Assembly: GCA_038746285.1 (NCBI GenBank)
Contig: JBCDKT010000026.1
Coordinates: 1 to 54,278, forward strand
DNA length: 54,278 bases
Direction: 5' to 3'
DNA from: Bacteroidota bacterium
GTDB taxonomy: Bacteria > Bacteroidota > Rhodothermia > Rhodothermales > JANQRZ01
Translations under genes and position numbers: made by a program
In this document: in pieces, positions 4,599-51,007 of the stretch
Numbering within the stretch: position 1 is the stretch's first letter
Layout: each line of letters begins with the position of its first letter
Notes under the pieces: model-generated
Seen by the model: only the letters and a program-made list of their open reading frames with translations
The model's database searches: none
What the model was told of the DNA's origin: nothing

Positions 4599-4603
4599 AG
4601 GTA

Positions 4604-6124: not shown

Positions 6125-6141
6125 GCCATGCTCGTGTTCGC

Positions 6142-8128: not shown

Positions 8129-8131
8129 ATC

Positions 8132-11727: not shown

Positions 11728-11821
11728 AGGACAGATTCTACCGCCATAGCTGACAGTGAGCCGCCAGAGGCCCGGACCGCGCTCTCGGGGTGACGCCCCC
11801 CTCCACGAGCCCCCAGACCCC

Positions 11822-12583: not shown

Positions 12584-12668
12584 CGCCCGGCTCACCGGAT
12601 GACGGGAGGGCCGTCACCGCCGTCGCCTAGCGTCGGTGGCGATGGCCCTCTCACTCGTTTCCAGACCC

Positions 12669-13145
12669 ATGCCCCGCTCCGTCTCCTCCGTGCTCCTGGC
12701 CGCTCTCGTCGTCCTCACCGCTGACTGTGGCCCTGGCGATGCGCCAGAGGCCACGCCGAGCGAGGCCGCGCCGGGCGTCGCCCACCTCCAGGCGTGCCTC
12801 GACGTCGCGCCGACCGAGCCCTGCCCCGCCAACCCCGACGCGGACGGGGCCTACTGGACGGCCCAGCAGGAGGCCCAGAGCGGAGCCTACCTCGACGCCG
12901 CCGAGCTCTGCCTCCGCGCCGCCATCGACGGGCACAAGGCGGCCCGCGAGGGCGCCTGCGTCGACGTCTACCGGGCCTACGTCGCCGAGGGCGTCCGCTC
13001 CGACCTGGGCGGCCGCTTGGACGAGACCGAGGCGCGGCGCGGGTACGCCAAGGCCCGGATCGCGCTCCAACGCCAGCGCTCCCAAACGTTCATCGACGGG
13101 ATGCGGGCTGGCCCCGGCCCGGACGTCCCTCAAACCATCGACTAG
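12669..13145 (+). CDS. Small exported Cys protein at the trbK position
   Basis: A 158-residue protein with an N-terminal signal-like segment ending in LTADC at Cys20. An aspartate before the cysteine departs from the usual lipobox, so lipidation is uncertain. The mature part has several cysteines and a tandem helical region (YLDAAELCLRAAIDG and YAKARIALQRQR) that resembles a Sel1/TPR-like fold. In Ti and RP4 plasmids the gene between trbJ and trbL is trbK, an entry-exclusion lipoprotein. Position suggests the same role here, but I see no sequence similarity to TrbK. Start codons at 12636 and 12642 are alternatives. Confidence 0.6.
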   Translation: MPRSVSSVLLAALVVLTADCGPGDAPEATPSEAAPGVAHLQACLDVAPTEPCPANPDADGAYWTAQQEAQSGAYLDAAELCLRAAIDGHKAAREGACVDVYRAYVAEGVRSDLGGRLDETEARRGYAKARIALQRQRSQTFIDGMRAGPGPDVPQTID

Positions 13146-13148
13146 CCC

Positions 13149-14099
13149 GTGACGAGCCTGCCCCTCCGACCTCTCGACGCCGACCGCCAGCGGCCCCGCG
13201 CGCGCCGCGTGCTCGGTGGAGCGGGACTCGCGGCCCTCGCCCTCGTGCTCGCGCCAGAGGCCGCGGCGCAGCTCCCGCCCCCGGAGGTGCTCGACACGAT
13301 CGTCGAGGACTTCCGCACGGCGGCCGACTCGGCCCGGCCCGCGCTCCTCGCCATCGCGCGCGGGACGTTCGGCGTGCTGGCGATCATCGAGATCGCGCTC
13401 AGCGGGCTCTTCTGGACGCTCCGCGCCGAGGGTCCGTACAAGGTGCTCACCGGGCTCGTCGTCAAGCTGGGGTGGCTCGCGTTCGCCTTCGGGCTCATCG
13501 CGACGTTCGACCAGTGGTTCCCGCCGGTCATCAACGGGTTCCTCGCGGCGGGGCAGTCGGCCTCCCCGGGCACGTTCAGCCCCGGCGAGGTGCTGGGTCT
13601 CGGCGTGCAGATCTCGACGTCGATGGTGGGGGCCATGTTCGAGGAGCTGTCGTTGCTCGACATCGACGGCCCAACGCTGACCAACATCGTGCTCGTGGCC
13701 ATCGCCGCGCTCGTGATGGAGGTGCTCTTCGCCGTCATCGCGGGCATGGTCGTCCTGGTGCTCGTCGAGTCGTTCCTCGTCTTGGCGTGCGGGTCGCTCG
13801 TGCTCGGGTTCGCCGCGTTCCGCGGGACGGCGTCGCTGGCGGACCGGTTCGTGGCCTACGTGTTCGCGGTCGGGATCAAGCTGTTCCTGCTCTTCCTCCT
13901 CGTGTCCGTCGGGATGGACATCGCGGAGGCGTGGCTCCCCATCATCGAGTCGAACCCGGGCGACGTGGCGCCGATGCTGGCCGTCCTGGGCGGGGCGATC
14001 ACGTTCGCGCTGCTCGTGATCGTGCTGCCGTCGAAGGCGTCCTCGTTCCTCACGCGCGACTTCCAGCCCGGCTTCGTCAAGGCGCTCGCGTCCGTGTAG
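13149..14099 (+). CDS. trbL: TrbL/VirB6 polytopic channel protein
   Basis: A 316-residue integral membrane protein. It begins with a signal-like segment (ALALVLAPEAAAQ) followed by about five to six membrane helices, with a periplasmic loop around residues 115-165. The pattern, including a central block of helices and a basic C-terminal tail, fits TrbL/VirB6, the inner-membrane channel subunit. It starts at a GTG three bases after the preceding stop. The following trb gene (trbF) is separated by an inserted opposite-strand ATPase gene. Confidence 0.82.
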   Translation: MTSLPLRPLDADRQRPRARRVLGGAGLAALALVLAPEAAAQLPPPEVLDTIVEDFRTAADSARPALLAIARGTFGVLAIIEIALSGLFWTLRAEGPYKVLTGLVVKLGWLAFAFGLIATFDQWFPPVINGFLAAGQSASPGTFSPGEVLGLGVQISTSMVGAMFEELSLLDIDGPTLTNIVLVAIAALVMEVLFAVIAGMVVLVLVESFLVLACGSLVLGFAAFRGTASLADRFVAYVFAVGIKLFLLFLLVSVGMDIAEAWLPIIESNPGDVAPMLAVLGGAITFALLVIVLPSKASSFLTRDFQPGFVKALASV

Positions 14100-37852: not shown

Positions 37853-38033
37853 GTTATTGCACGTTGAGGCCACTCGATCTGGACGGCGGTCAAATCGAGT
37901 GACGACTAGGTCAGCGCGCCTCGCTCCAAATGACTTCCGATAAGGACAATTTATCGGAAGCCGACGCCCCGCCAGAGGCTATACTCCGTCGGTGCTCGGC
38001 ACTTCAGGTTGGAGATGCTGAGCATGCAATAAC
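37853..38033. other. Possible recombination site: dif-like core with flanking arms
   Basis: Between rep and the next gene lies a perfect palindrome with arms CTTCCGATAA (37934-37943) and TTATCGGAAG (37951-37960) around GGACAAT. XerC/D core sites have the same build: arms of about 11 bp ending in ATAA and TTAT around 6-8 bp. Outside it, GTTATTGC (37853-37860) and GCAATAAC (38026-38033) form inverted flanks at similar distances. Another inverted pair, CACTCGAT and ATCGAGTG, lies at 37871-37901. A tyrosine recombinase follows downstream. Function is inferred. Confidence 0.55.
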
Positions 38034-38043
38034 AGCTACACTA

Positions 38044-38430
38044 ATGCGCGCTCACCTCTTCTTCATCAAGCCCAGCCTCACCGACGGCCGCCTCGGTCGC
38101 GAGCACGATGAGCCGTTCGAGGACCGCGACGGCTGGTACGACCACGCGGCGACGCTGGAGCTCGATCCACGCGAGACGACCGACGACACCCTGGAGGCCG
38201 TCTACTACCAGACCCAGCATGGGCGCGACGACTGGACCGGGAACGCCGAGGTCCGGTGGGTCTCCGGTCCAGGCCTTCGGTCGTCCTCTGTCGGGGACGT
38301 GATCGTCTTGGAAGGACCGGGCGGACGAGCCGTCTACGAGATTGCTCTGGCAGACTTCCGTCGGATCGACGTGCCAGCGGACCAGATCCCTCCGGCGCAG
38401 ACCGTGCCACCGCCGCCCGAGATCCAATGA
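38044..38430 (+). CDS. YodL-like small plasmid protein
   Basis: A 128-residue acidic protein. The C-terminal half (LEAVYYQTQHGRDDW, then RSSSVGDVIVLEG and YEIALADFRRIDV) follows the pattern of the YodL-type domain found in plasmid and ICE proteins of unknown function. I chose the ATG at 38044 because codons upstream of it are unlike the window's bias and that stretch holds a long palindrome; an ATG at 37930 would give 166 residues. Its stop overlaps the recombinase start (ATGA), so the two are translationally coupled. Confidence 0.6.
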   Translation: MRAHLFFIKPSLTDGRLGREHDEPFEDRDGWYDHAATLELDPRETTDDTLEAVYYQTQHGRDDWTGNAEVRWVSGPGLRSSSVGDVIVLEGPGGRAVYEIALADFRRIDVPADQIPPAQTVPPPPEIQ

Positions 38431-39536
38431 GCGATCTCGTCCCCACCCAGTCCGGTCTCCCTGCCGCACTCGCGGCCGACGCGGAGTCCGCCCGCCGGTT
38501 CGCCGAGGCGGCGCGGAGCGACGCCACGCTCCGCGCTTACCGAAGCGACTGGGCTGACTTCGCTCTGTGGTGCGGCGACCGCCAGCTCGTGGCCATGCCG
38601 GCGAGGCTAGAGACCGTCGCATTATATATAGCGTCCCGCGCGGAGGCCGGACCCGAGGACGACGACGGGCGGCCGACGGCCCCACTGAAGGTGGCCACGC
38701 TCGAACGGCGGATGGCGGCGATCTCCCAGGCCCACAAGCTGGCCGGCGTCGAAAGCCCGGCGCTCCGCTCGCGCGAGCCGCTTCACTCCGTCTGGGCGGG
38801 CGTGACGCGTACGCTCGGGACGGCGCGAGAGAAAGTGGCGCCCGCGCTCGCGGCCGACGTGGTGGCCATGGCCGCGGCGTGCGATGAGACCATGCGGTGG
38901 GCGGAAGATGCCCGCCTCGGGGACGTGGCCGAGGCGGTTGCAGACGACGCACCGCCAGGTACGGCGCTCCGGGCACGGCGAGACAAGGCGCTCCTGCTCC
39001 TCGGCTTCGCCGCCGCGCTCCGCCGGAGCGAGCTGGCGGCCGTCCGGACGGAGCACCTGTCGTTCACACCGGACGGACTCCGGCTCCTGATCCCCAAATC
39101 GAAGAGCGACCAGGAGGGCGCGGGCCAGGTCGTCGGCGTGGCCTACGGGAGCCGGTCCGAGACGTGCCCCGTGCGCGCGGTGCGGTCGTACCTCGCCGCT
39201 GCCAGCCGGGCGCTTGCGGACCAGGGCCGACCGTCTCCCCTCTCAGGACCCGTCTTCCGGTCAGTCGACCGCTGGGGACGCCTTGGACGATCGTCGATCA
39301 CCGGACGGACGGTCGCGAACGTGGTCAAGGCCTACGCCGAGGCTGCCGGTCTCGACCCGACGCTCTACGCGGGGCACTCCCTGAGAGCGGGGTTTGCGAC
39401 CACGGCAGCGCGGGCGGGGAAGCCCGACCGGGCCATCCAGAAACAGACCCGACACAAGAGCACGGCCATGCTCGCCGAGTACGTCCGCGAGGGCCGGCTC
39501 TTCGACGACAACGCCTCCGATGGCATCGGGCTGTAG
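38427..39536 (+). CDS. Tyrosine recombinase/integrase
   Basis: A 369-residue recombinase. An N-terminal SAM-like core-binding domain spans about 15-130. The catalytic domain has Arg199 (in ALRRSELAAV), the lysine loop IPKSKSDQEG, His317-x-x-Arg320 (GHSLRAGFA), His343 (TRHKST) and the nucleophile Tyr352 (AEYVREG), so all catalytic residues are present. It probably resolves plasmid multimers or mediates integration, acting at the dif-like palindrome 0.5 kb upstream. The ATG overlaps the stop of the preceding small gene. Confidence 0.9.
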   Translation: MSDLVPTQSGLPAALAADAESARRFAEAARSDATLRAYRSDWADFALWCGDRQLVAMPARLETVALYIASRAEAGPEDDDGRPTAPLKVATLERRMAAISQAHKLAGVESPALRSREPLHSVWAGVTRTLGTAREKVAPALAADVVAMAAACDETMRWAEDARLGDVAEAVADDAPPGTALRARRDKALLLLGFAAALRRSELAAVRTEHLSFTPDGLRLLIPKSKSDQEGAGQVVGVAYGSRSETCPVRAVRSYLAAASRALADQGRPSPLSGPVFRSVDRWGRLGRSSITGRTVANVVKAYAEAAGLDPTLYAGHSLRAGFATTAARAGKPDRAIQKQTRHKSTAMLAEYVREGRLFDDNASDGIGL

Positions 39537-39603
39537 CAACTGTCAGGACGATCTGAGTCGAGTCGAACATCGAGCAACACAACTGATGTAACGAGGCCTT
39601 ATC

Positions 39604-39936
39604 ATGTCGGACCCCCGCCCCGCCGGCCACATGCCTGCCTCTCCGCCCAGCCGGTACGTCCGCAAGCAACTCAGCGTCACCCCCGAGCAAGACCGGGCAC
39701 TCAAGCGCCGGAGCCGAGAGCTCGGTGTGTCCGAGGCCGAGCTCGTCCGCCGGGCGCTCGACGCCGCCCTCGCCGACGGCCCAGTCACCTCACCTGCTGG
39801 TTCGCCACTCGACGAGCTTCTCGCTCACACCCGAGAACTAGGCGATGGTCGCCGCCTGGAGGGTGGATGGGACCGCGAAGCCCTATATGGTGACCGGGGC
39901 TACCGGCGCGATCGCGACGACGCGGCCAGGGCGTAG
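39604..39936 (+). CDS. RHH-type antitoxin of a VapBC-like pair
   Basis: A 110-residue protein with a CopG-like ribbon-helix-helix segment at about 18-58 (RKQLSVTPEQDRALKRRSRE, LGVSEAELVRRALDAAL). A polar C-terminal part (65-110) is the likely toxin-binding region. It precedes a PIN-domain toxin gene by 2 bp. Such antitoxins bind and neutralise the toxin and repress the operon. The pair should stabilise the plasmid. Confidence 0.82.
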   Translation: MSDPRPAGHMPASPPSRYVRKQLSVTPEQDRALKRRSRELGVSEAELVRRALDAALADGPVTSPAGSPLDELLAHTRELGDGRRLEGGWDREALYGDRGYRRDRDDAARA

Positions 39937-39938
39937 CG

Positions 39939-40394
39939 GTGGCCCAATACCTCCTCGACACGAACGTCCTCGTCTACGGCGTCGACTCCCGCGACCCCGA
40001 GAAGCAGAACCTTGCGCTCGATGTTCTCGCCCGCGTTGGTCGGCCAGGGCCGACCGGGCCGTCGGCCACGCTCCCAGCTCAGGCCCTCGCCGAGTTCTCG
40101 CGCGTCACCATGTCCCGGCTCAAGCCGCCGGTCCCACCCGACCGCGTCTACCACCAGATCGGTCTCTACGAGCGAACGTTCCCGGTCGTCCCGCTGACTC
40201 CGGCCGTCGTGCTGGAGGCGGTCCGGGGCGTCCGAGACCACCAGTTCCCGTACTACGACGCGCAGATCTGGGCGGCGGCTAAGCTGAACCAGGTGCCCGT
40301 CGTGCTCAGCGAGGACTTCGCCTCGGGCTCGACCGTCGAGGGCGTCACCTTCGTGAACCCTTTTTCTTCCACCTTCGACCTCGACGTGTTGTGA
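39939..40394 (+). CDS. vapC: VapC-like PIN-domain ribonuclease toxin
   Basis: A 151-residue PIN protein. The acidic active-site residues are visible: Asp in LLDTNVLVYG (about residue 7), Glu in QALAEFSRV (about 52), Asp in YYDAQIWAAA (about 108) and Asp in VLSEDF (about 127). The fold and length are those of VapC endoribonucleases that cut tRNA or rRNA when freed from the antitoxin. The start is a GTG two bases after the antitoxin stop. Confidence 0.88.
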   Translation: MAQYLLDTNVLVYGVDSRDPEKQNLALDVLARVGRPGPTGPSATLPAQALAEFSRVTMSRLKPPVPPDRVYHQIGLYERTFPVVPLTPAVVLEAVRGVRDHQFPYYDAQIWAAAKLNQVPVVLSEDFASGSTVEGVTFVNPFSSTFDLDVL

Positions 40395-40430
40395 GTTCTG
40401 AAGGCCACTCATCTATTCATGTCTCACGTA

Positions 40431-40447
40431 CTGCGGGTTCCCCGCAG
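40431..40447. other. Hairpin in the leader of the methylase-kinase operon
   Basis: CTGCGGG and CCCGCAG are perfect 7-bp arms around TTC, in the 146-bp gap between vapC and the methylase. No T-run follows, so it is not a standard terminator. It could be an operator or leader structure for the downstream operon. Confidence 0.35.
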
Positions 40448-40540
40448 AGCCCGCTGCTGGATGCGGCCCGGGTGATGATTTCAGAGCCTGGCGGGGACGG
40501 AGCGGTTGGAGAACCGTCTCGTCCAGGTGGAGATGGCGAG

Positions 40541-42286
40541 GTGACTACCGAGGCTAAAGACCGAAAACGGCTGGGGATCTACTACACGCCGAGCGGGGCC
40601 GCCAATATCCTGTGCAATTGGGCGATCAGATCTGGCGAGGACCGTGTCTTGGAGCCCAGTTTCGGCGCGTGTGGGTTTCTAGAGGCAGCAGAGACCCGGC
40701 TCCGCGACGTTGATGCGCGAGTACCTCTAGACCAACTGTACGGGTGTGACATCGATGAAGACGCTTTCTCGGTGTACCTCCAGGAGAAGCTGGGCCGAGG
40801 CGCAGGAGATGGACGGTTTCTCCACCGAGATTTTCTGAGCGTCCGACCCGGAGATTTCGAAGGAGGACCTTTCGACGCCGTCGTCGGGAACCCCCCTTAT
40901 GTGTCCTACCACACGATGGACGAGGACCAACGTGCGACTGCCGAAGAGGCCGTCGCTTTGTCGGGGTTAGGCCTGAGCCCTAAGGCCAGCCTGTGGGCGT
41001 ACTTCCTCGTTTACGCGACCGTTTTCTTGAAGCCAGGCGGGCGGATGGCCTGGATCCTCCCTAGCAGCTTCCTCTATGCGGAGTACGCGGCGCGCGTCCG
41101 GGAGCACCTCGCGGATCGGTTCGACCGATGCCTCGTCATCCAGTTGGGCCAACGGCTCTTCCTTTCAGAGGGGACGGAGGAAGCCACTATCGTGGTTCTG
41201 GCCGAGGGGTACGGGGAGAACCGAGATGGGGACGTGCGACTCGGCTTCGCCGAGACTTTGGCCGACTTGGACAAAGCGGTCACTGACTGGGATGCCGGAG
41301 TCGGCGATTCGAAACCATTCGATGGTCGAGCCAGCACGCTACTGCTGAGCAGTGCGGCCTCGGCCGCGATGAGCGTTGCGAGCGATGCTGGCCGGATCGT
41401 CAGCCTGGGTGAGGTCGCAGACGTTCGAATCGGGATTGTGACGGGCGCGAACCCTTTCTTTGTGATTGACGAGCCAACGGCCACCCGGCACGGGTTGCCT
41501 CAGGACGCTCTCCGACCGATCCTCGCGAAGTTTGCGATGGCCCCCGGCACCGTATTGCGCGACGCGGACCTGGACACGGCTAGGCGAGACGGGCGGAAGC
41601 TCTTGCTTGTGGATACCGACCACCCTGATCTCGAGAGAGGCGGGTCCGCTCTCCAACGGTACTTGGGCCTTTTTCCTGTCGACAAACGGAAGGCCAACAA
41701 GACGTTCCGGAAGCGGAAGCTGTGGCACCGTCCCGATGATGGACGAGTCCCGGACGCCTTCTTTCCCTACATGTACCAGCACGGCCCCAGAATCATTCTC
41801 AACGAGGCCGAGACGACATCCACGAACACGATCCACCGAGTCTACTTCAAGGGTGCGATGGCGAGTGGTCGAGGCAGCTCGGAGCTACCGTTTCCCCTCC
41901 CGACCTCTGAGGCTACGGTCGGCGCTGAGACTTGGAGACGTATGTGCGCGGTGTCGATCCTTAGCACGTTCAGCCAGCTCTCAGGAGAACTCCAAGGCAG
42001 GAGCTATGGAGCCGGTGTGCTCAAGCACGAGCCGTCGGAAGCCCGGCGAATCAAATTGATCCTGCCTGAACAGCCTGTTGATGTCGACCGCGTGTTCAAG
42101 GAGGCAGATGAGGCTCTCCGTGAGGGAGACTTGGTTGCAGCACGCACGACGGCGGACGCCTTCGCTTTGGGATCCCTCCACGAGGAAGAACGGACCACGA
42201 TGCAGCAGATTCTGGGCGTCGCACTCGACGCGGCTCGGAGGAGACGAAAACCGGTCCGCCCCCAACCAGTCACCCCGAGGGAATGA
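40541..42286 (+). CDS. N6-adenine-type DNA methyltransferase of the kinase-receiver operon
   Basis: A 581-residue DNA methylase of the TaqI/Eco57I type. It has the YYTP box (14-17), a motif I variant EPSFGACGF (38-46, with Ser-Phe-Gly-Ala-Cys in place of the usual glycine-rich run), the acidic turn YGCDIDEDAF, catalytic NPPY at 117-120, and a C-terminal target-recognition-like region (about 290-560). No nuclease or helicase domain is visible. I chose the GTG at 40541 because AGGTGGAG lies 8 bases before it and the protein then starts just ahead of the conserved region; GTG 40391 and ATG 40475 are alternatives. Its stop overlaps the next gene (ATGA). It probably marks self DNA for the system that follows. 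Confidence 0.85.
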   Translation: MTTEAKDRKRLGIYYTPSGAANILCNWAIRSGEDRVLEPSFGACGFLEAAETRLRDVDARVPLDQLYGCDIDEDAFSVYLQEKLGRGAGDGRFLHRDFLSVRPGDFEGGPFDAVVGNPPYVSYHTMDEDQRATAEEAVALSGLGLSPKASLWAYFLVYATVFLKPGGRMAWILPSSFLYAEYAARVREHLADRFDRCLVIQLGQRLFLSEGTEEATIVVLAEGYGENRDGDVRLGFAETLADLDKAVTDWDAGVGDSKPFDGRASTLLLSSAASAAMSVASDAGRIVSLGEVADVRIGIVTGANPFFVIDEPTATRHGLPQDALRPILAKFAMAPGTVLRDADLDTARRDGRKLLLVDTDHPDLERGGSALQRYLGLFPVDKRKANKTFRKRKLWHRPDDGRVPDAFFPYMYQHGPRIILNEAETTSTNTIHRVYFKGAMASGRGSSELPFPLPTSEATVGAETWRRMCAVSILSTFSQLSGELQGRSYGAGVLKHEPSEARRIKLILPEQPVDVDRVFKEADEALREGDLVAARTTADAFALGSLHEEERTTMQQILGVALDAARRRRKPVRPQPVTPRE

Positions 42287-44586
42287 ACGTTAGCACTCCT
42301 GAACGGGCAGATGAGATACGCGAGGAACTCCAGAGAGTGCTCACGGAGTCTCCGACCGACTACTCGCGCGTCCTTTCGTTGTCCACTGAGCTCGCGAAGC
42401 TCGACCCAGACAACGTCCGGTTCTTCGCAGACGCGGGGCTTATCAGCCGTCTCGGTCGGGAACTCGTATCTCGGAAGGAGACGGCTCTGGCTGAGCTCGT
42501 CAAGAACGCCTACGACGCGGACGCGACTGCGGTCGAGATCGTCTTCGAGGACGCGGAGTCCAGTGGGGGACGGGTCGAGATCTCCGACAACGGGATGGGA
42601 ATGACCCGGGATGCTCTCGTGGAGGGGTTCATGCGACTCTCCTCGACCATCAAAGTCAGCGAGCCCGTCTCGCCGCGGTACCGCCGTCAACGCGCGGGCA
42701 GAAAGGGGATCGGAAGATTCGCCGTGCAGAGGCTCGGCCGCCAGCTCGTGATTACGACGCAGACGTTGGGGTCGGACACGGCCCTCCGCGTCAGGATCGA
42801 TTGGAGCCAGTTCGAGAGCGGGCAGGATCTCTCCAACGTGGTCAGCGAGGTGGTCGAGGTCCCAAAAGACCGGGACGAGGGGACGGTACTTCAGATCGAA
42901 GGGCTCCAAGACCGCTGGACCGACGCCGAGTTACGGCGTGCGTTCCGGTACGTCGGTGACCTCTTGCAGCCGTTCCCGCTGACCGCGCGGACGCGGCGGA
43001 GCGACACCGACCCTGGGTTCGAGGTCTTCCTCTACAGGAAAGAAGACGACGACCTCCGGCTCGTCGCGGACGACGAGAGTGAGATCCTTTCGTACGCGCT
43101 CGCGGAGATCGAGGCGGTCGTAGACGACGACGGACAGGGGTACTGGTCTATCAGCTCCAAGCTCTACCCATCCATCGACGAGGATGTCCTGCCGATTGGA
43201 GGGGACAAAGACTACCCATCAGCGCGGTTCGACTTTATTCGTGGCGTCCACCTAAAGGCGTACTACTTCATCACCGGTATCGGTGAGATACCCCGTTCCC
43301 TTACCAAGACGATCCGCGACTTCCTGGAAGAAAAAGGGGGTATGAGGGTCTATCGGAACGGCTTCAGAGTTGCCACCTACGGCGAACCCGGTAACGACTG
43401 GCTCGGCCTGGACTCTGCCCAAGCTCGGCGTGTACTCCTCGTGCCGCTCAGCAATAGGAACGTGTACGGGTTCGCCGAACTGTTCGACCCAGTCGGAACG
43501 CTCTTCGAGGAGACGGCGAGCCGCGAGGGTCTGATCGAGGACAAGGCGTTCGAGGAACTCCAGGAGTTCGCTACGCGCGTCCTGAGAGCTGCCGCCCTAC
43601 GCGCGAACAGCGCTCGAAAGGTCAAGAGGATAGCGGCGGGGCGTGAGAAGCAAATCGAGCAGCCGCCAGAGGACCGGGTCCGAGCGGCCACCGAGCGAAT
43701 CCGTCGAGCCGCGAAGGGCAGTGAGGGCGCGTCGCCCGGACCTGCGCCCTCGCACGCCGACTCGGACTTCGAGGCGGACCTGGACGAGATCACGCGGGGG
43801 CTCGATGAGATGACCCGGGAGCGCGAGGAACTCCTCAACGAGCTCGGGATGCTGCGCGTCCTCGCCAGTCTAGGTATCGTCATCAGCGAGTTCACGCACG
43901 AGATCCGGCAGCTCGTTCCGGCTGCCGTGACGGACGCTCGGAGGCTCCAGCAGAAGCTCGCAGGGGGTCCGCTGGAGCGTGCGTCCGAGCGGCTACACGA
44001 GAACGTTCGACGCTTTCAGACCTACGCTGCCTACTTCGACCGAACGGTGCGTGAGAACGTGAGTCGCGACCTCGACACTCAAGAGGTCGGGGACGTGGTG
44101 AAAAGGTTCGCTGAGGTAATGGGACCGGCCGCTCGACAGGCAGGCACGACACTCACGGAAGAGATCGAGGGGGCGGGCCTGTTCTCCACCCCCATGCACC
44201 CCTCCGAATGGGCATCAGTCCTGTTCAACTTCTACTCGAACGCTCAGAAAGCGATCAAGCGAGCGCGAACGGTCGGCTCCATCCTTATCCGGGCGGGAAG
44301 GACGGGCGACAGTGTTTACGTTGATGTCGCCGACAACGGGGACGGGATTCCTGACGAGAACGCCGACCGGGTCTTTGACGCCTTCTTTACGACATCCACC
44401 CAGGGTGGTCCATTCGAATCGAGCGAGGAACTTCAGGGGAGCGGCTTGGGGCTCAAGATCGTCCGCGACATCGCGGACAGCTACGGCGGGGTCGTAGAAT
44501 TTGTACCTCCTCCCAGCGGGTATGTCACCTGTCTCCGGTTCCGAGTCCCTGCTGAGGACGAAACGGAGACCACGCCGGGCTCCTAA
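42283..44586 (+). CDS. Dual GHKL ATPase: MutL/Hsp90-like N-terminal module plus histidine-kinase module
   Basis: A 767-residue soluble protein with two Bergerat folds. The N-terminal one has the N-box ELVKNAYDADA (71-81), DNGMGM (102-107) and GRKGIGRFAVQRLG (139-152), as in MutL/MORC/Hsp90-type ATPases. The C-terminal one is a histidine kinase: an H-box EFTHEIRQL with His539, a helical dimerisation region, N-box FNFYSNAQKAI (about 646-656), DNGDGI (about 684), FFTTSTQGG and GSGLGLKIVRDIADSYGG (about 721). There is no membrane segment, so it senses something inside the cell. It is co-translated with the methylase, and a receiver-domain gene follows after 10 bp. Confidence 0.88.
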   Translation: MNVSTPERADEIREELQRVLTESPTDYSRVLSLSTELAKLDPDNVRFFADAGLISRLGRELVSRKETALAELVKNAYDADATAVEIVFEDAESSGGRVEISDNGMGMTRDALVEGFMRLSSTIKVSEPVSPRYRRQRAGRKGIGRFAVQRLGRQLVITTQTLGSDTALRVRIDWSQFESGQDLSNVVSEVVEVPKDRDEGTVLQIEGLQDRWTDAELRRAFRYVGDLLQPFPLTARTRRSDTDPGFEVFLYRKEDDDLRLVADDESEILSYALAEIEAVVDDDGQGYWSISSKLYPSIDEDVLPIGGDKDYPSARFDFIRGVHLKAYYFITGIGEIPRSLTKTIRDFLEEKGGMRVYRNGFRVATYGEPGNDWLGLDSAQARRVLLVPLSNRNVYGFAELFDPVGTLFEETASREGLIEDKAFEELQEFATRVLRAAALRANSARKVKRIAAGREKQIEQPPEDRVRAATERIRRAAKGSEGASPGPAPSHADSDFEADLDEITRGLDEMTREREELLNELGMLRVLASLGIVISEFTHEIRQLVPAAVTDARRLQQKLAGGPLERASERLHENVRRFQTYAAYFDRTVRENVSRDLDTQEVGDVVKRFAEVMGPAARQAGTTLTEEIEGAGLFSTPMHPSEWASVLFNFYSNAQKAIKRARTVGSILIRAGRTGDSVYVDVADNGDGIPDENADRVFDAFFTTSTQGGPFESSEELQGSGLGLKIVRDIADSYGGVVEFVPPPSGYVTCLRFRVPAEDETETTPGS

Positions 44587-44596
44587 CCAATCGACC

Positions 44597-45793
44597 ATGA
44601 GCTGCACGTATCTCTATCTCGACGACGAGAAGCCGGAGACGGTCGAACCCTACATCGAGGAGGTCGAGGACTACGCAGAGCCCCTCACAATACGCCTTGC
44701 CCATCCCAAGCTATACCAGCACCAGATCGAGGAGGTCATGGAGGGCGGATACGATGGGATCATCCTCGACCTTCGCCTCGACCGGGCGCCGAACCCAGAC
44801 CCGGACTCGGAGGGCAAACGGGCTGATTACCGAGCGTCTACGCTCGCTCAGGAGATCCGGACGCGCGCAGCCGAGAGCAGCGCGAAGAAGGCTCGGCGTG
44901 GACGGGGGGAATGCCCGATCGTGCTCTGGTCAACGGACGACCGCTTGGACACGTCATATACCCGCGACCACACCAGCCACGACCTGTTCGACCTGCTGTG
45001 CGTGAAGCAGGACATCGTCAGCGACGAACCGAGCGTCCCAGAGGAGAAGAAAGCCCCGTGGGTCGCGAGGCGGCTCGTCGCGCTCGCCGAAGGCTACGAT
45101 ACAATCGGAGACGTGCGAGACAAGGTCGGCCTCAAATCTCGCCAGTTCTACCGGTTCTTAGGGTTTGAGGAGAGACCGACGTTCCTCGACCAGCGGTTGG
45201 CGGAACTCGACCCGTTCCGGGACCCTCAGTCCCGGTTCCGACCCGCCCACGAATATGCCCGGTTCATCCTCCGCGAGCTTCTGGAAGCGACGGGTCCACT
45301 CATCGACCGTCCCACCCTTGCGACCCGCCTGGGAATCGACGAGGCCCGTTCTCCTGCGTTTGATGAAGTGCTGGAGTCCCTGTTTAGTGAGGCAGAATAC
45401 ACAGGCCCTTTCGCAGCTGGATGGCCTCGCTGGTGGGCCTCCAAGGTCGATGAAGCATGGGTGGCTCTGCTCGACAAACCCGGACCGCTTCGGTCCACAC
45501 CAGCGGACGAACGGGTCGCCATCCTGAAGGAGAAGGGGGGTGTGAAGAAGATCGCGCCCGCGGACCCAATTGCCGCCGGCGGCAGCACGACGTATTGGGT
45601 GGTGTGCCGAGCGACAGGGAGACCGCTCGATCCGAGGGAGGGGTTCGTGCTAGAGACTCGGCGCAAATTCCCGTGGCAGGGCGACGAGTACGTCTCATCG
45701 GCGGCCGTGCTACAGGGTTTGTTGAGTCAATCGGACCTCATCCTCGCCCCCTCCGAACAGCGTCGTGCCGACCTCCTCCGGACGCGCTCTTGA
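44597..45793 (+). CDS. Receiver-domain protein with unknown C-terminal region
   Basis: A 398-residue protein. Residues 1-140 look like a response-regulator receiver: acidic Asp9-Asp10 in YLYLDDEKPE, a phosphoacceptor candidate Asp58 in DGIILDLRLD, Ser/Thr112-113 in PIVLWSTDD and Lys137 in CVKQD, each at the end of the expected strand. An extra loop (66-105) enlarges the domain. Residues 140-398 are helical and contain no DNA-binding, nuclease or membrane motif I recognise. The ATG at 44597 lies 10 bp after the kinase gene. The simplest reading is that His539 of the upstream protein phosphorylates Asp58. The output is unknown. Confidence 0.78.
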   Translation: MSCTYLYLDDEKPETVEPYIEEVEDYAEPLTIRLAHPKLYQHQIEEVMEGGYDGIILDLRLDRAPNPDPDSEGKRADYRASTLAQEIRTRAAESSAKKARRGRGECPIVLWSTDDRLDTSYTRDHTSHDLFDLLCVKQDIVSDEPSVPEEKKAPWVARRLVALAEGYDTIGDVRDKVGLKSRQFYRFLGFEERPTFLDQRLAELDPFRDPQSRFRPAHEYARFILRELLEATGPLIDRPTLATRLGIDEARSPAFDEVLESLFSEAEYTGPFAAGWPRWWASKVDEAWVALLDKPGPLRSTPADERVAILKEKGGVKKIAPADPIAAGGSTTYWVVCRATGRPLDPREGFVLETRRKFPWQGDEYVSSAAVLQGLLSQSDLILAPSEQRRADLLRTRS

Positions 45794-45830
45794 CCCCTTC
45801 ATTCGGGCTACCGAACGACGAGAACTTGGA

Positions 45831-46610
45831 ATGACGAAGCGCCAGACTGCCAAACTGCGTGCCGCGTACTTCGACGAGCGCGTGAGCGAGCTCCATCAAC
45901 TGGCCGCCATCCTGTCCAAGATCGAGGGTGTTCGGTCGGTGGACCCGCTCAATCAAGCTCACGTCGGCAAGTTGGAGCAAGGCGAGTGTTGGTCCCTGAG
46001 CCTCTCCGGGCTGACGTTCGATCTGGAAGGGGAAGAACTCGAAGCGCAACGCCATGCGAAGCCGCCGGGGCTGGCGAGCGTCGAGTTAGTTCTAGATGTC
46101 CGGTTGGAGGGGTGGTGCGTACCCGAAGACAGTCTGCGAGACCCCTTCCGGCAGCTCTCTGTCGAGTGCGTCTTGGCCGGGACCTGCTCAGGCGAAACCA
46201 TCCACCATTCGGCTTGGCACCTTGAGCGTCACGGCGCAGCGAGCGCCGATGGCGACTTCGCCCACCCGGCCTACCACCTCCAATATGGCGGGATGAGACT
46301 CCCTAAGAAGATGGATATCGGTCATCACCTTCTTCTCGACTCTCCCCGCGTGGCGCACCCGCCGCTCGACGCCGTCCTCGCCATCGACTTCGTGGTGTCG
46401 AATTATATGCCTCGCCTCTGGCATGACCTCCGGAACGAACGTCCCGAGTACGAGCCGCTGATTGAGCGGGCGCAAGCCCGATGTTGGCGTCCTTACGCGC
46501 AGGGGAGCACCGCCCGTTGGTCGGCTGAGGACTCAGGCTGGGATGGCCCGGACATCTGGCCCCAGACCGTGTACCGAGGTGAGAGTGGCGCAGAGGCCGA
46601 ATCTAGCTGA
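45831..46610 (+). CDS. Unrecognised fourth protein of the methylase-kinase operon
   Basis: A 259-residue soluble protein with no family I can name. It has a helical N terminus (8-35, then KIEGVRSVDPLNQ) and a beta-rich middle (LSLSGLTFDLEGEE, SVELVLDVRLEGWCVPE) ending in VECVLAGTC. A His-rich central block follows (IHHSAWHLERH and HPAYHLQYGG), then an aromatic C-terminal tail. The ATG at 45831 is 37 bp after the receiver gene, and relaxed codon use is shared with the three genes upstream, so it belongs to the same operon. It could be the effector or an adaptor of the system. It contains one 9-mer copy at 46414. Confidence 0.65.
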   Translation: MTKRQTAKLRAAYFDERVSELHQLAAILSKIEGVRSVDPLNQAHVGKLEQGECWSLSLSGLTFDLEGEELEAQRHAKPPGLASVELVLDVRLEGWCVPEDSLRDPFRQLSVECVLAGTCSGETIHHSAWHLERHGAASADGDFAHPAYHLQYGGMRLPKKMDIGHHLLLDSPRVAHPPLDAVLAIDFVVSNYMPRLWHDLRNERPEYEPLIERAQARCWRPYAQGSTARWSAEDSGWDGPDIWPQTVYRGESGAEAESS

Positions 46611-46624
46611 GTGGTCGGAGCCTT

Positions 46625-46852
46625 CTACATCCGCCGGATGTCTTCGCGGAGGCGGCGGACCTTCGTGACCACCGCATCAACGGCATCGGACCGCTCGCGG
46701 CGGGCCAGGTATGCCTCGCGGTGGTCAAGGAGCGGGTCGAGCAGCTCCGCGTCGATCTTCTGACGGAGGAACTGGAGGGCGTGAACGACCGTGTCGAGGT
46801 CGGCCTCGGTGAGCTCGTCGTCGGAGGTGAGGGGGTCGAGGAGCGGGTTCAT
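46625..46852 (-). CDS. Small helical hypothetical protein downstream of the HNH gene
   Basis: A 75-residue acidic and helical protein (TEADLDTVVHALQFLRQKI, VDAVVTKVRRLREDI), probably a coiled coil. It lies 54 bp after the HNH nuclease on the same strand, so it may be the third gene of that operon. It has no recognisable motif. A 15-bp near-palindrome (ACATCCG and CGGATGT) overlaps its stop codon and separates it from the convergent operon. Coding status is moderately supported by composition only. Confidence 0.45.
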   Translation of the reverse strand: MNPLLDPLTSDDELTEADLDTVVHALQFLRQKIDAELLDPLLDHREAYLARRERSDAVDAVVTKVRRLREDIRRM

Positions 46853-46906
46853 CAGATCGCGGGTGGGAAGGGTTGCATCGTACGCGCCCGCCCTGCCTTC
46901 GCCCTG

Positions 46907-47620
46907 TCAGCCCTCACCCTGCTCGCGAGCGAAGTCCTCGAACGACGAGTATGCGCGGTGGCCGCGAGCTTTGTTTGTCTTGCCCTGAATGGTGCGATCA
47001 ATGCGCCCGTGGAGGTACCGGATGAGTTCGTCGAAGCGCTCGATAGGAACGTGGTAGACCCCCGCGACTTTGAACTTCGACTTGATGTTGCTCGAGATGA
47101 CGCCGTGGTTGTGGCGGCCCTTCTGCCCATAGCTCTGGAGTCCGGTGGACCGAAACTCGTTGTACCGAGTGATGAGATAGCCGACGTAGTTCTTGCGGTG
47201 AAGGTCGGTGCCAATGCTCCCCGCCGGGTAATGCATCCTCCCATTCGGCTTCACGTCGCCGTGGACGTGGATGTCGCCACCGGCGACGATGCTGCCGGTA
47301 GCGTCACGGCCGATGGAGACGATGTTACCGAGCGGCCGTGACGTTGACCTGCCGGGCATCTGGTGGATGACGGCTCCCTGGGACGCCTTGACGCGCCGGA
47401 CCTCCGCCTCGGGGATGGCTTTGCTGTGGATGCGGGCGTGGCAGTTCTTGCAGGCGAGGACGAGGTTGCCGGGCTCGTTCGACCCGTCCTCCGACCGGGG
47501 GACGATGTGGTGAATGTCGAGGGCATCGATCTCGTCGAAGCTGCAGAACGAGCAGCGGCTCCCGGCCTGTTGGTAGATCAGCTTCTCCGTCGGCTTGGGG
47601 ATCGGTTTCTTGTTCGCCAT
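46907..47620 (-). CDS. HNH endonuclease coupled to the type IIG enzyme
   Basis: A 237-residue protein. The N-terminal HNH domain has Cys23-x-x-Cys26, DIHHIVPRSEDGS (His37/His38), Asn52 in PGNLVLACKNCH, and Cys57-x-x-Cys60, with a His61/His65 pair, giving both the zinc ribbon and the catalytic HNH triad. The C-terminal part (80-237) is unlike known HNH partners and includes a GGDIHVHGDV segment that may be a beta-rich sensor domain. Its ATG lies 3 bp after the stop of the restriction-modification gene, so the two are co-expressed. It could be an extra nuclease for modified or foreign DNA. Confidence 0.85.
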   Translation of the reverse strand: MANKKPIPKPTEKLIYQQAGSRCSFCSFDEIDALDIHHIVPRSEDGSNEPGNLVLACKNCHARIHSKAIPEAEVRRVKASQGAVIHQMPGRSTSRPLGNIVSIGRDATGSIVAGGDIHVHGDVKPNGRMHYPAGSIGTDLHRKNYVGYLITRYNEFRSTGLQSYGQKGRHNHGVISSNIKSKFKVAGVYHVPIERFDELIRYLHGRIDRTIQGKTNKARGHRAYSSFEDFAREQGEG

Positions 47621-47623
47621 CGG

Positions 47624-50600
47624 TCAGACGGGTGAATCGAGGGGCATCCGGGGCGGGGCCGTCTTCCAGACGAGGGCGCGCTCGTCGGGCGTGATGCCGT
47701 AGGCGTCGAAGACAGCCTCAGTGATGGCCCGCTCGTGGGCGAGCGCGGACCCTTCGAGGACGGCGAGGCGCATCGTGGCCTCGGCGTAGTAGTCGAGGAT
47801 CTCGCGGAGGAGCGCGGGCGAGAGCTTCGAGTGGCCGGAGCGCTTCTTGACCTCGCGGGCGAAGGTCGCGTCGTCGAGCGTCCAGAAGGACTCGAGCTTG
47901 CGGCCGGGCGTGGCGACGCCGTGCTCGATGCAGAGCCAGTCGAGGAGCTCGGCGGCGTGCTGGCGGCGCTCGTCGGCGAGGCGAACGAGGTCGGCGACGT
48001 GAGTCTCGACCGTGTCGCGCGTCTCCGCCGACGGCTCGGCGATGGGGAGATCCGTCAGGAGGTACCCGGCCGGGCTCAGCGCGTCGTCTTTCATGTGCGG
48101 CAGGTACCGCCAGGCGTACCACCACATCAGCGGGCTGTTGAGCACGCCCAAGAGGTACAGGTCGTCGGTCGGGAGGAGGAAGACCTTGTTGTTGCCGTAG
48201 AGCCCGTCGGTGTCGAGCGCGTACTGGGGGTGGAACTGGATCTCCTGATAGACCAGCTTCGGGCCGTCGAACAGGTCGTAGTAGTCGACAGAGTCCTGGA
48301 TCTCGTACCACTCGTAGGCGCCGCCCTTCCGTCCAGGCCACTTGCCTGACCAGCCAGAGGGCTTCGGTTCTAACCGCTCCCGGAAACCTTCGAGGTAGCG
48401 CTTGACGGCGGGGTAGGCGTCGATGTCGATGCCTCGCCGGGTGAACACCATGTGCTCCCCGCCCCACTCGGGCGACCAGCGCGAGACGTCGGAGCCACGG
48501 AGAAACGGCTTGATGATCTCGGCCGAGCGGCCGTCCTCGGCCACGAGCCGGTCGCGCGTCGCCTGATCGACGAGGAACGCCGCGTTGAGACCGGTCACGA
48601 CGCCCCGGTACGGTTTGACCCCTGCGAACTCCGCCAACCCGGGTCCGGCACGGCGCAGTCGCTCCATCAGGTCGTCCACGGCGGGGGGCTCCAGACTCCA
48701 CGGCTCAGCCGAGAACCGGGACCACGGGACGCGGAAGGCCTCCTCGGCCACGAACTGCGCCAGCGGCGCCTCGCGGAGCCGCTCCCTGGGAACCGTCGCG
48801 ACCTGGACCGTGGAGCCGCCACCTCCCCCCTCCCCTGCCCCGTCGGCCGGGACCCGGAGCGAGAGGATGACCGGGAACGTGTCGGCGTCTTCGAAGACCG
48901 GCGCGTGGCCGAAGTCGAGGACCGTCTCGGCGACCGTGTGCTCGGCGAGGAAGGCCCGGAGCGGCTCGCCGTAGCCCGCCCGCATCCACTTGTTCGAGAC
49001 GATGTAGGCCAGCTTCCCACCCGGCGCCAGGAGCCGCGCACCCTGCTCGACGAAGTAGGCGTAGAGGTCGGCCGAGCCGTGGTAGACGTCGAACGCCTCG
49101 GCGAGGTACGGCTTGAGCTCCGTGAACCACTCCGCGCGGACGTAGGGCGGGTTGCCGAGCACGCAGTCGAACCCGCCTTCCGGGAGCGGTCCGGGTGCGG
49201 CTTGGCCGTCGCCACCCGCAGGGCCGCCGAAGACCTCGGGGAACGCCGCGTGCCAGTCGAAGGCGCGGGCGCGCGTCTCGGCGGGGAGCGCGTCGAAGAC
49301 GGGCTCCATCGCGTCGCCGGACTCCGGCGGGACCACGAGCGAGTCGCCCGTGCGGATGGTCTGGTCGAGGTTGGAGAGCGGTCGGTCGGTCCGGGCCGTC
49401 TTGAGCCACAGGCTGAGCCGCGTGATCTCGACCGACTCCGCGTTGAGGTCGACGCCGTAGAGGTTCTCCTGGAGGATCTGCCGGTCGAGGTCGAAGAGAC
49501 CGGCCTGGCCGCCCTCGAACGAGGCCAGCTTCCGGTTCACGCGCTGGTACTCGGCGTGGAGGTAGTCGAAGGCGGCCACGAGGAACGCGCCCGATCCGCA
49601 GGCCGGGTCGAGCACCTTGATCCGGCGCAGGCGGTCCTGGTAGTCGAGCCAGAGCGCGCGCTCGGCCTGAGCGCGCTGCTTGGTGTAGCTCTCCGGGAGC
49701 GCCTCGAAGTCGTTCGCCGCGCGGGCGGCCTCGAACTGCTCGGCGAGCCAGGCCCCGACCGTCTGGGCGACGACGAAGCGGGTGACGAACTCGGGCGTGT
49801 AGAACACGCCGTCCGACTTCCGCTTGGACCGGGCGGGGGCGTCGCCGCCGTCGATGGCCGCGTGGAGCGCTTCGAGGTCGGCGATGGAACGCTCGAAGAT
49901 ACGACCCAGGATGTCGACCGAGAGGTCGGAGTTGAAGTCGTACGCCGCGATGTCGAGGAGCGGCGCGAGCGCCTCGTCGGGGACGGCGAGCGCGTCGAGG
50001 ACGGGGTCGGGCGCGAAGAGCCCGCCGTTGTAGGCGTTGATCCGGGGCGAGGCGTTCCCTTGGTCGACGGCGCGGAAGAGGCCGCGGAGCTGGTCCCACC
50101 GCGACGTGGTGACGAACCCGGTCCCGGCGGCCGTGAGCGCCTGGCGGAGCACCTCGCGGGGCAGGAGCCCGGTGTCCTCGCAGAAGCAGACGAAGAGGGT
50201 CCGGTCGAGGAGCGTCTGGGCCGCCGCCAGCAGGGCGCGCTCGTGCTCCGGTACGGGCGTGCCCTCCGGGGCCGGGTTGTGATCGACGAGGTCGCGGAAG
50301 AGCCCGAGCCGGGTGCCGCGGTAGAGCTTGTAGAACTCGGCCGTGATCTCGACCTCCTGTGTCTTCGAGGCCTCGACGAGCCGGTCGGTGGGGCTGGGAC
50401 CCGAGCCGGACCCCAGGAGGCGGTCGCGGTGGAGGACGGCGAGGAGCTCGCGGAGCACCTGGTCGTCGCCCAGGTCGGCGACCCGGACCTCGACCGCGTA
50501 GCCCTCGCCGCGGTCGGCCCGGTAGAGCCGGACGTGGGTGAAGTTGGAGACGACAACCCAGCGGCACCCGTCGAACTTCGAGACGTAGCCGAACGCCTGC

Positions 50601-51007
50601 TCGACGGGCGTGAGCCGGGCGGCCCGGCGCTGGGGAGCGTCGAGGTCGGCCCCGGGCCCCTTCAGCTCGACGACGGCGACCGTCCGGCCGGACGCGTCGA
50701 CGCCGTAGCGGCCGAGCGAGGCGTCAGGGGTCTTGCCGCCAGCGGTCTCGGACGAGGCGCTCTCGGCCTTGAGCTCGTAGCGGTCCGGGGCATCGGCAAA
50801 CTGGCGGTAACCGAGGACGGTCCCGAAGAGGTCGGCGAGGAACTTGCCCTGGTGCGGTTTCTCGTTCTGGCCGACGAAGGCGGGGTCGGCCGACGTCCGC
50901 GCCCACCGGGCGGCGGCTTGGCGCTGGGCGTCCGTGGGGTCCGGGAGCGCGGCCGCTTCGCGGGCGAGCAGACGGGGAGAGACGAGCGGCTTGGACGGGG
51001 CGGGCAC
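47624..51007 (-). CDS. Type IIG (Eco57I-like) restriction-modification enzyme
   Basis: A 1127-residue single-chain R-M protein. The N-terminal nuclease has the PD-(D/E)xK pattern Pro94-Asp95 and Glu114-x-Lys116 (VAVVELKG). A helical linker leads to the N6-adenine methylase with motif I DPACGSGAFL near 466-475 and NPPY near 617-620. The C-terminal 350 residues form the target-recognition domain with the Eco57I-family pattern (FLRGSDVSRWSPEWGGEHMVFTR and similar). The start is a GTG. It should cut DNA outside its recognition site and protect its own DNA. It forms an operon with the HNH gene. The recognition sequence cannot be read from here. Confidence 0.92.
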   Translation of the reverse strand: MPAPSKPLVSPRLLAREAAALPDPTDAQRQAAARWARTSADPAFVGQNEKPHQGKFLADLFGTVLGYRQFADAPDRYELKAESASSETAGGKTPDASLGRYGVDASGRTVAVVELKGPGADLDAPQRRAARLTPVEQAFGYVSKFDGCRWVVVSNFTHVRLYRADRGEGYAVEVRVADLGDDQVLRELLAVLHRDRLLGSGSGPSPTDRLVEASKTQEVEITAEFYKLYRGTRLGLFRDLVDHNPAPEGTPVPEHERALLAAAQTLLDRTLFVCFCEDTGLLPREVLRQALTAAGTGFVTTSRWDQLRGLFRAVDQGNASPRINAYNGGLFAPDPVLDALAVPDEALAPLLDIAAYDFNSDLSVDILGRIFERSIADLEALHAAIDGGDAPARSKRKSDGVFYTPEFVTRFVVAQTVGAWLAEQFEAARAANDFEALPESYTKQRAQAERALWLDYQDRLRRIKVLDPACGSGAFLVAAFDYLHAEYQRVNRKLASFEGGQAGLFDLDRQILQENLYGVDLNAESVEITRLSLWLKTARTDRPLSNLDQTIRTGDSLVVPPESGDAMEPVFDALPAETRARAFDWHAAFPEVFGGPAGGDGQAAPGPLPEGGFDCVLGNPPYVRAEWFTELKPYLAEAFDVYHGSADLYAYFVEQGARLLAPGGKLAYIVSNKWMRAGYGEPLRAFLAEHTVAETVLDFGHAPVFEDADTFPVILSLRVPADGAGEGGGGGSTVQVATVPRERLREAPLAQFVAEEAFRVPWSRFSAEPWSLEPPAVDDLMERLRRAGPGLAEFAGVKPYRGVVTGLNAAFLVDQATRDRLVAEDGRSAEIIKPFLRGSDVSRWSPEWGGEHMVFTRRGIDIDAYPAVKRYLEGFRERLEPKPSGWSGKWPGRKGGAYEWYEIQDSVDYYDLFDGPKLVYQEIQFHPQYALDTDGLYGNNKVFLLPTDDLYLLGVLNSPLMWWYAWRYLPHMKDDALSPAGYLLTDLPIAEPSAETRDTVETHVADLVRLADERRQHAAELLDWLCIEHGVATPGRKLESFWTLDDATFAREVKKRSGHSKLSPALLREILDYYAEATMRLAVLEGSALAHERAITEAVFDAYGITPDERALVWKTAPPRMPLDSPV

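Follow-up and report, generated by a model that had tools for sequence, protein, structure and literature searches.

Histidine kinase and receiver pairs already serve in phage defence: Detocs joins the two, with a nucleotide-cleaving effector fused to the receiver, and is not known to involve DNA modification. The closest published relative of the locus described here is HEF_HK/Response_reg_2 (PF19191/PF19192), a two-component system linked to restriction-modification, as set out in the available part of its description (Bellieny-Rabelo 2021, PMC8011034). There, as here, a kinase with HATPase_c_3, an H-box and HATPase_c adjoins a diverged receiver, with DNA methylase genes near; the methylase is mainly of the C5 type, whereas our locus and its close kin have an N6-methylase or phosphorothioation genes together with a conserved third protein. 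The paraMORC GHKL ATPases share the N-terminal GHKL ATPase and the methylase and nuclease neighbourhoods, but in the accessible sections of their source (Iyer 2008, PMC2292703) their C-termini are nuclease, TIR or of unknown kind and a receiver goes unmentioned, whereas the C-terminus of our kinase is a histidine kinase. VcSduA (Shedu), according to excerpts of its description (PMC12137116), also has a GHKL N-terminus, an ATPase thought to control the output and needed for activity; changes in the ATPase or in the nuclease each abolished activity, but the nuclease is fused into a single protein, for which these excerpts give neither a phosphorelay nor a modification partner. The Ssp/Pbe phosphorothioation defence resembles our family in that SspBCD adjoin the kinase, receiver and third protein in three close loci. 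The main text of a reappraisal of phosphorothioation systems (PMC10853773) makes no mention of histidine kinase, receiver, GHKL, response regulator, HATPase or two-component.

The locus lies in a window of 54,278 nucleotides (contig JBCDKT010000026.1 of a Bacteroidota bacterium) and consists of four genes on the forward strand: an N6-adenine-type DNA methyltransferase of the Eco57I type (40541..42286, 581 aa, GTG start), a dual-GHKL histidine kinase (HK; 42283..44586, 767 aa), a receiver protein (REC; 44597..45793, 398 aa) and a fourth protein, our proposed effector (4TH; 45831..46610, 259 aa). Methylase and HK share an ATGA overlap (42283-42286), and the next two gaps measure 10 and 37 bases, so that the layout given in an earlier note on this DNA was exact in coordinates and strand. 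The methylase frame opens upstream of the GTG start at 40541, at 40391. The operon forms a composition island, with 62.5% GC versus 71.9% in the rest of the window; the operon-length windows of lowest GC start at 40251-40351, and the lowest non-overlapping one has 69.8%. When an empty site was sought in a same-genus genome (G340), the left flank gave no match and the right flank a single match of 338 bases at 71%. On the strand opposite to the operon, 46907-51007 holds HNH and type IIG genes.

The methylase was assigned to N6_Mtase (2.5e-14) and Eco57I (2.7e-13) by Pfam and to MTase_II (2.9e-71) by PADLOC, and its translation in the window carries both motifs reported earlier, YYTP and NPPY; the methyltransferase expected of a type II restriction-modification system is present. 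A Pfam scan of the operon detected no nuclease family in the HK C-terminus, REC or 4TH, and none of the four proteins had a Detocs-like nucleoside phosphorylase-type domain at E <= 1. In HK, Pfam found a MutL/MORC-like N-terminal GHKL ATPase region (HATPase_c_3, 1e-24; residues 66-192, 42478..42858, forward strand) and a C-terminal kinase ATPase domain (HATPase_c, 4.7e-25; residues 644-758, 44212..44556, forward strand). Between them, the predicted phospho-accepting His539 (codon 43897..43899, forward strand) corresponds in alignment to the H-box histidine of ZraS. Residues 54-216 match the N-terminus of the BbrUII/HgiDII restriction enzymes in NCBIfam (1.3e-22); unlike in those enzymes, the match ends at profile position 175 of 659 and the nuclease part is absent. 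HATPase_c_3 and HATPase_c both occurred in all ten HK members scanned, their N-to-C order being that seen in the window HK. His539, the N-terminal ATP-site residues E71, N75, D102, G104 and G106 and the kinase ATP-site residues N649, N653, G686 and G721 are kept in 55/55 HK relatives, the rows of a tree from which L028, repeat contigs and the later-found L099 were excluded. Both ATP sites look intact because their motif residues are kept throughout. All 55 relatives show the N-terminal GHKL with intact ATP motifs seen in paraMORC proteins and the H-box His, N and G boxes of two-component kinases, and the two Bergerat folds and His539 read from the DNA at the outset are borne out.

The earlier reading of the third gene as a receiver had been tied beforehand to structure prediction. 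An AlphaFold2 model of REC (pLDDT 88.2) matched response regulators in Foldseek (E 1e-4) and reached Z 13.8-13.9 in VIA; as modelled, REC has a receiver fold, and the alternative that it is not a receiver is ruled out. The receiver domain covers about residues 1-177 and a C-terminal part about residues 199-398. Model and alignment together give the acidic pair, Asp, Ser/Thr and Lys of receivers: D10 and the predicted phospho-acceptor Asp58 (codon 44768..44770, forward strand) are kept in 24/24 rows, and Lys137 (45005..45007, forward strand) in 18/18 close rows and 18/24 overall, in agreement with the residues named before. A PDB sequence search with REC returned a single response regulator (E 0.84), its C-terminal part of about 200 residues had no PDB sequence match at E <= 10, and a scan of viral sequences with REC as sole query had no match. 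The C-terminal part could be a DNA-binding regulator; an impression by eye of a winged helix there was set aside.

The cassette falls short of both Pfam domains that define the HEF_HK/Response_reg_2 system: none of ten REC proteins matched PF19192 at E <= 10, and neither did the window HK match PF19191 at this threshold. PF19191 was sub-threshold in 4/10 HK members (best E 0.0086), and a wider relative, L012, reached 17.1 of the 24.1 bits required. In profile comparisons the receivers of six C5-type or related loci resembled the cassette REC (E 1.1e-7 over 94 columns, the receiver part only), and those of L068, L077, L078 and L081 did so weakly (E 0.0034, probability 9.6). At E <= 0.1, neither PADLOC 2023 nor NCBIfam gave a match to REC or 4TH. 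The earlier statement that the gene set matches no named system holds for these collections, although the related HEF_HK/Response_reg_2 system had already been published (PMC8011034). In open-licence PMC full text other than preprints, we found no description of an HK-receiver-modification defence of this kind. HATPase and REC are among the domains of predicted, unvalidated systems in the accessible part of the DefensePredictor study (PMC13092281), from which membership of the same family cannot be told.

The co-occurrence search that the earlier note had called for showed that HK, REC and 4TH are adjacent in 19/19 loci of the close HK clade, which come from the window, bacterial genomes, a plasmid and (pro)phage contigs. 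A search of genome contigs by 4TH alone gave eight of these loci, with HK and REC adjoining in 8/8; eight more came via HK in viral contigs, L002 via REC on plasmids and L099 via REC in genomes. Chance neighbourhood is ruled out by this conservation. An integrase lies beside the cassette in the three prophage contigs tested (L020, L021, L022), and L020 and L021 also carry an origin-nicking replication gene (phrog_91), which we take to be of the P2 gpA type. HK-REC-4TH is a real, mobile cassette. Among 13 viral contigs found with HK, profiles detected all three genes in eight (34-44% HK identity), HK with a weak REC in L026, L028 and L029 (24-25% HK identity) and HK alone in L027 and L030; L026 and L028 seem to be a single sequence. 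INPHARED phages gave three records, none covering 80% of HK. HK matches occurred in 81 plasmid records, 7 of which were examined. We excluded from all counts the repeats L003 (the same as L004) and L031, L093-L095, L097 and L098 (the same as earlier contigs), as well as L096, which has 4TH alone at a contig edge.

A DNA-modification gene directly adjoins the three genes in 17/17 close loci with complete context; this count omits L008 and L019, whose context is cut by a contig end. The partner is an N6-methylase upstream in ten loci, a methylase of a different family downstream in four and the phosphorothioation genes SspBCD in three, which the HK tree reads as one switch of partner. Phosphorothioation proteins of the PAPS-reductase type (SspD/DndC) and their partners adjoin the triad in L004; none was found among nine window proteins scanned. 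The three phosphorothioation loci also carry PbeA- and PbeC-like genes, which may themselves act in restriction, so that the triad is not the sole candidate weapon there. The four genes first proposed as the unit do travel together, but the core unit is the three genes HK-REC-4TH, and the methylase is an exchangeable part, swapped for phosphorothioation in three loci. A two-phylum draw of 27 HK loci included at least 19 in which a DNA-methylase motif occurs in a gene no more than three genes away from HK; re-inspection of open frames within 3.5 kb of the other eight gave no countable methylase motif. At its contig start, one of these, L086, carries an SPPY-containing fragment of 175 residues, which was left uncounted.

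The 4TH protein carries a signature HxD...HPxxH (residues 130-149; 46218..46277, forward strand), in which H130, P146 and H149 are kept in 23/23 rows, H145 in 22/23 and D132 in 22/23, the exception being the window protein itself, with Glu. A second conserved block, PRxxHPPLDxxLxID (R173 to D186; 46347..46388, forward strand), keeps R173 in 23/23 rows, D180 in 20/23 and D186 in 17/23. This H/D/R cluster resembles a catalytic or metal site. Neither a nuclease nor any other catalytic family was detected in 4TH, and its AlphaFold2 model (pLDDT 82.9) had no Foldseek match in PDB or BFVD at E <= 0.001; the best VIA match, actin-capping protein (Z 5.7, rmsd 5.1, 124 aligned), falls in the tool's uninformative range. 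A PDB sequence search returned one unrelated chain (E 0.42), and a viral scan with a three-row 4TH alignment had no match.

In the wider kin, whose fourth-slot labels on the HK tree we assigned ourselves, this position holds an HNH protein in L089 and, just below the Pfam cut-off, in L066, both long branches whose join in the HK tree may be false. It holds an MBL hydrolase in L014 (Pfam), L015 (similarity) and L076, L078 and L080 (local profile). A recognised fourth-slot effector is absent for 16 of the 27 HKs, most neighbours having been checked with local profiles only, and the slot of a seventeenth, L090, reaches the contig end. An impression by eye that the fourth protein of L013 is PIN-like was set aside, and a motif likeness seen by eye between a 4TH-like set (A11) and small proteins of L065 and L067 was unsupported (E 0.16).

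We propose, with confidence about evenly balanced, that the cassette is a modification-gated phosphorelay anti-invader system with 4TH as its effector. The DNA-modification enzyme would mark self DNA, and the clamp-type, MORC/MutL-like N-terminal ATPase of HK would be engaged by foreign or unmarked DNA. An ATP-driven dimer change of this ATPase would lead to autophosphorylation at His539, and the phosphate would pass to Asp58 of REC. Phospho-REC would then release or activate 4TH, which would harm the invader or the cell. Since the fourth slot of the wider kin can hold HNH or MBL, the output is most likely, by analogy, the cutting of nucleic acid. The kept catalytic residues, the receiver fold and the GC dip over the operon also speak for the proposal, and VcSduA offers a precedent. 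Counting against it are the 4TH sequence and model, which match neither a catalytic family nor a solved fold, the REC C-terminal part as a possible DNA-binding regulator, the PbeA- and PbeC-like genes with their single switch of partner, and the 16 HKs that have no recognised fourth-slot effector. The earlier suggestion of a defence in which methylation marks self and a phosphorelay carries the alarm gains contextual support from co-travel, from the modification neighbours in 17/17 loci, from the integrases of three prophage contigs and from HNH or MBL in that slot. Its effector, left without a name at the time, now has a best candidate in 4TH, which is no add-on.

It is unlikely that the cassette is an ordinary regulatory two-component system, in which HK would sense a cell cue and the REC C-terminal part would adjust expression or activity of the methylase and 4TH, with no direct role in restriction. 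The HEF_HK/Response_reg_2 authors speculated, in the available part of their paper, that signalling controls restriction-modification (PMC8011034), and the REC C-terminal part could bind DNA. Against this, none of the ten REC proteins scanned contained a DNA-binding family, the third gene conserved in 19/19 close loci fits a working modification partner better, and replacement of that partner by an unrelated chemistry fits a promoter regulator less well. More doubtful still is the opposite polarity, with HK keeping REC phosphorylated, and 4TH held off, while DNA is marked; loss of the mark or of phosphate flow would free 4TH, and the cassette would act as an addiction module no less than as a defence. 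The carriage on mobile elements, the modification gene in 17/17 testable close loci and the selfish behaviour of restriction-modification, discussed in the accessible text of PMC8011034, all count for it, but sequence cannot tell polarity.

Also improbable, to about the same degree as the regulatory reading, is that 4TH serves as an adaptor or DNA-recognition subunit and that killing falls to the C-terminal part of REC or to a nuclease, whether adjacent or unlinked. This would account for a 4TH with no detectable enzyme family and for the nuclease genes that adjoin in the window (HNH and type IIG, 46907-51007), L004 and L008. However, neighbouring nucleases vary among loci while HK-REC-4TH is constant, and the H/D/R cluster of 4TH looks catalytic or metal-binding.

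Within the proposed anti-invader system, we tentatively suggest, with clearly less confidence, that the module works regardless of which chemistry marks self and that 4TH is a new-fold nucleic-acid-cutting or toxic enzyme. The same HK, REC and 4TH would serve N6-methylation and phosphorothioation because HK reads a general cue rather than the mark; this cue would be DNA that is unmarked or invading, or a modification enzyme standing idle. If the proposal is true, the cassette would run restriction through a two-component phosphorelay, with detection and attack in separate proteins. Phosphate transfer would join the two, so that, in contrast to a restriction enzyme, the system could be given a delay or a threshold and be tuned. 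The restriction-linked two-component system predicted in 2021 would also gain a mechanism open to testing, in which the effector slot has a name, and the question would arise of how one sensor serves two chemically unrelated self marks.

In the window, positions 40541-46610 of the forward strand hold four genes in a row, which encode an Eco57I-type N6 DNA methyltransferase, a dual-GHKL (Bergerat ATPase) histidine kinase (HK) of 767 residues, a receiver protein (REC) of 398 residues and a fourth protein (4TH) of 259 residues (45831-46610). The coordinates confirm the ATGA overlap between methylase and kinase and the following gaps of 10 and 37 bp that the earlier note had described. The GC content is 62.5% in the operon versus 71.9% in the remaining window, where the lowest non-overlapping stretch of equal length has 69.8%; the operon is a composition island. 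A tyrosine integrase gene lies upstream (38256-39536, forward strand), and its product resembles (6.2e-39) the integrase that directly precedes the HK-REC-4TH triad in Hymenobacter lapidarius (locus L011, 4677-5795). Immediately before the methylase, a ribbon-helix-helix protein and a PIN-domain protein form a VapBC-like toxin-antitoxin pair (39604-40394, forward strand); the PIN gene and the methylase open frame share four bases if the latter is read from 40391. Directly beyond the cassette is a second restriction locus (46907-51007, reverse strand), comprising a type IIG restriction-methylase of 1127 aa and an HNH endonuclease of 237 aa whose gene has 62.5% GC. A search of 38000-47700 for sigma-70-like promoters gave no match, with 0.8 expected by chance.

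His539 lines up with the ZraS H box and is kept in all 55 HKs compared, as are E71, N75, D102, N649, N653, G686 and G721. The match of the HK N-terminus to the BbrUII/HgiDII restriction enzymes is confined to the GHKL part. Searches of Pfam (E <= 1) and of NCBIfam and PADLOC (both E <= 0.1) gave no family for 4TH or for REC, its C-terminal 200 residues included. The suspected receiver fold was borne out by the predicted REC structure (pLDDT 88.2, pTM 0.89), which has 29 PDB matches at E <= 0.001; the best VIA matches were 3bre (Z 13.9, rmsd 3.4, 138 aligned) and 3cfy (Z 13.8, rmsd 2.6, 129 aligned). Asp58, the putative acceptor, and D10 are present in 24/24 REC rows, S112 or Thr in 23/24, and Lys137 in 18/24, namely in all 18 close rows. 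The 4TH model (pLDDT 82.9, pTM 0.83) found no match among solved folds by structure comparison, and we regard this protein as a candidate effector of unmatched predicted fold. H130, P146, H149 and R173 are kept in 23/23 rows; residue 132 of its HxD signature is Glu in the window and Asp in the other 22 of 23.

The earlier note had treated all four genes as a unit, which holds for three of them: HK, REC and 4TH occur together in 19/19 close-family loci (18 from one clade of the HK tree, plus locus L099), while the methylase partner is exchangeable. With 4TH alone as query (3-row alignment), a scan of one genome per species (84,980 species) gave eight loci, and in 8/8 HK and REC stood alongside with order and strand kept; record titles name Bacteroidota, Geobacter and Gallionella among the hosts. 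Among viral contigs, the HK query detected 13 loci, and the eight with HK identity of 34-44% carry all three genes, the other five being at 22-25%. A tblastn search with REC found HK, REC, 4TH and then a methylase on a plasmid of Hymenobacter sp. PAMC 26628 (a single plasmid record), and the REC query against 395 Bacteroidia genomes added one locus. The triad is rare, with 2/395 Bacteroidia genomes and, in a further search, 1/395 genomes, each count including the known genome.

All 17 close loci with complete context have a DNA-modification gene directly beside the triad. In ten (the window, L005, L006, L018 and L020-L025), a methylase lies upstream, and the nine others match that of the window at E 9e-100 or better. 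Four loci (L002, L007, L011, L099) have a second methylase family downstream, with mutual E values of 3e-161 or better but only 1e-5 to 1e-7 versus the window methylase. In the remaining three (L004, L009, L010), the phosphorothioation genes SspB, SspC and SspD stand beside the triad (PADLOC was run on L004, to which L009 and L010 were matched by phmmer); SspA was not found in the L009 and L010 stretches. Because PbeA- and PbeC-like genes also occur in all three, the triad is not the sole candidate weapon there. In a maximum-likelihood tree of 55 HKs, the 18 window-type HKs form one clade (100/100), in which the phosphorothioation rows are nested among methylase rows, corresponding to one inferred switch. 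Side by side with the triad on the Hymenobacter plasmid L002 are an MmeI-like methylase and a Piwi-domain protein (2992-8647, reverse strand); in L008, an HNH endonuclease gene (5448-6491) lies directly upstream of the triad, and beyond the triad's downstream side 0.6 kb remain to the contig end.

The cassette also appears in mobile settings. An integrase adjoins it in L020, L021 and L022, followed in L020 and L021 by an origin-nicking replication gene (phrog_91), an arrangement which we take to be the P2 layout; judged by the order of its genes, L023 is arranged likewise, and a phage transposase lies upstream in L024. Such a position beside an integrase is a usual one for phage-borne defence genes.

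HK relatives (E <= 1e-40) were detected in 11/398 genomes of the Gallionella phylum and 17/395 of the window's own, counts that include three genomes already known. In at least 19 of 27 further HK loci, a DNA-methylase motif occurs in a gene no more than three genes away from the HK (N6/N4-type in 9, C5-type in 10). Their fourth slot holds the 4TH family in three (L071, L074, L075), an MBL hydrolase in three (L076, L078, L080), HNH in two (L089 above Pfam's cut-off, L066 just below) and small proteins without supported kinship in two (L065, L067); in L090 it meets the contig end, leaving the assignment unsettled, and in 16 no effector was recognised, mostly with local profiles only. Among plasmid relatives, the slot is 4TH-like in L012 and L016, MBL in L014 and L015, and of other kinds in L013 and L017. 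With labels assigned by hand, slot type tracks the HK tree (8 changes versus 25.5 in shuffles; 0/200 shuffles as low); the two HNH rows sit on long branches and may have been joined falsely. An HxD...HPxxH signature is common to 4TH and its remote kin (hhalign E 1.4e-6, probability 90). In L078, two different kinase systems lie about 4.5 kb from each other (HK genes at 4632-6752 and 11230-13332), one with the MBL fourth-slot protein and the other without.

The cassette is of the same broad kind as the HEF_HK/Response_reg_2 system (PF19191/PF19192, PMC8011034), but it falls short of both domains by which that system is defined and has other modification partners and an extra conserved protein. 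Iyer 2008 (PMC2292703) placed paraMORC ATPases in restriction-modification. A term search of a 2024 phosphorothioation survey (PMC10853773) gave no mention of histidine kinase, receiver or GHKL, and in the open-licence literature searched we found neither the four-gene set nor the triad next to phosphorothioation genes described. We conclude that the cassette is a real, conserved, mobile form of restriction-linked two-component system and, as far as our searches reach, undescribed.

Its most likely working is a mark-gated phosphorelay from HK via REC to 4TH. The partner enzyme would mark self DNA, and the N-terminal ATPase of HK, of the clamp type proposed for VcSduA (PMC12137116), would engage DNA that should be absent; the kinase part would then fire on His539, REC would accept the phosphate on Asp58, and 4TH would thereupon be set free or switched on. 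What sequence or model shows are the components, the fold and the conserved residues; we infer the signal, the polarity, the phosphotransfer and the chemistry of 4TH. The polarity of the relay may be opposite to the one proposed, or the role of the triad may be purely regulatory. The changed modification chemistry beside the triad makes the question of sensing directly testable.
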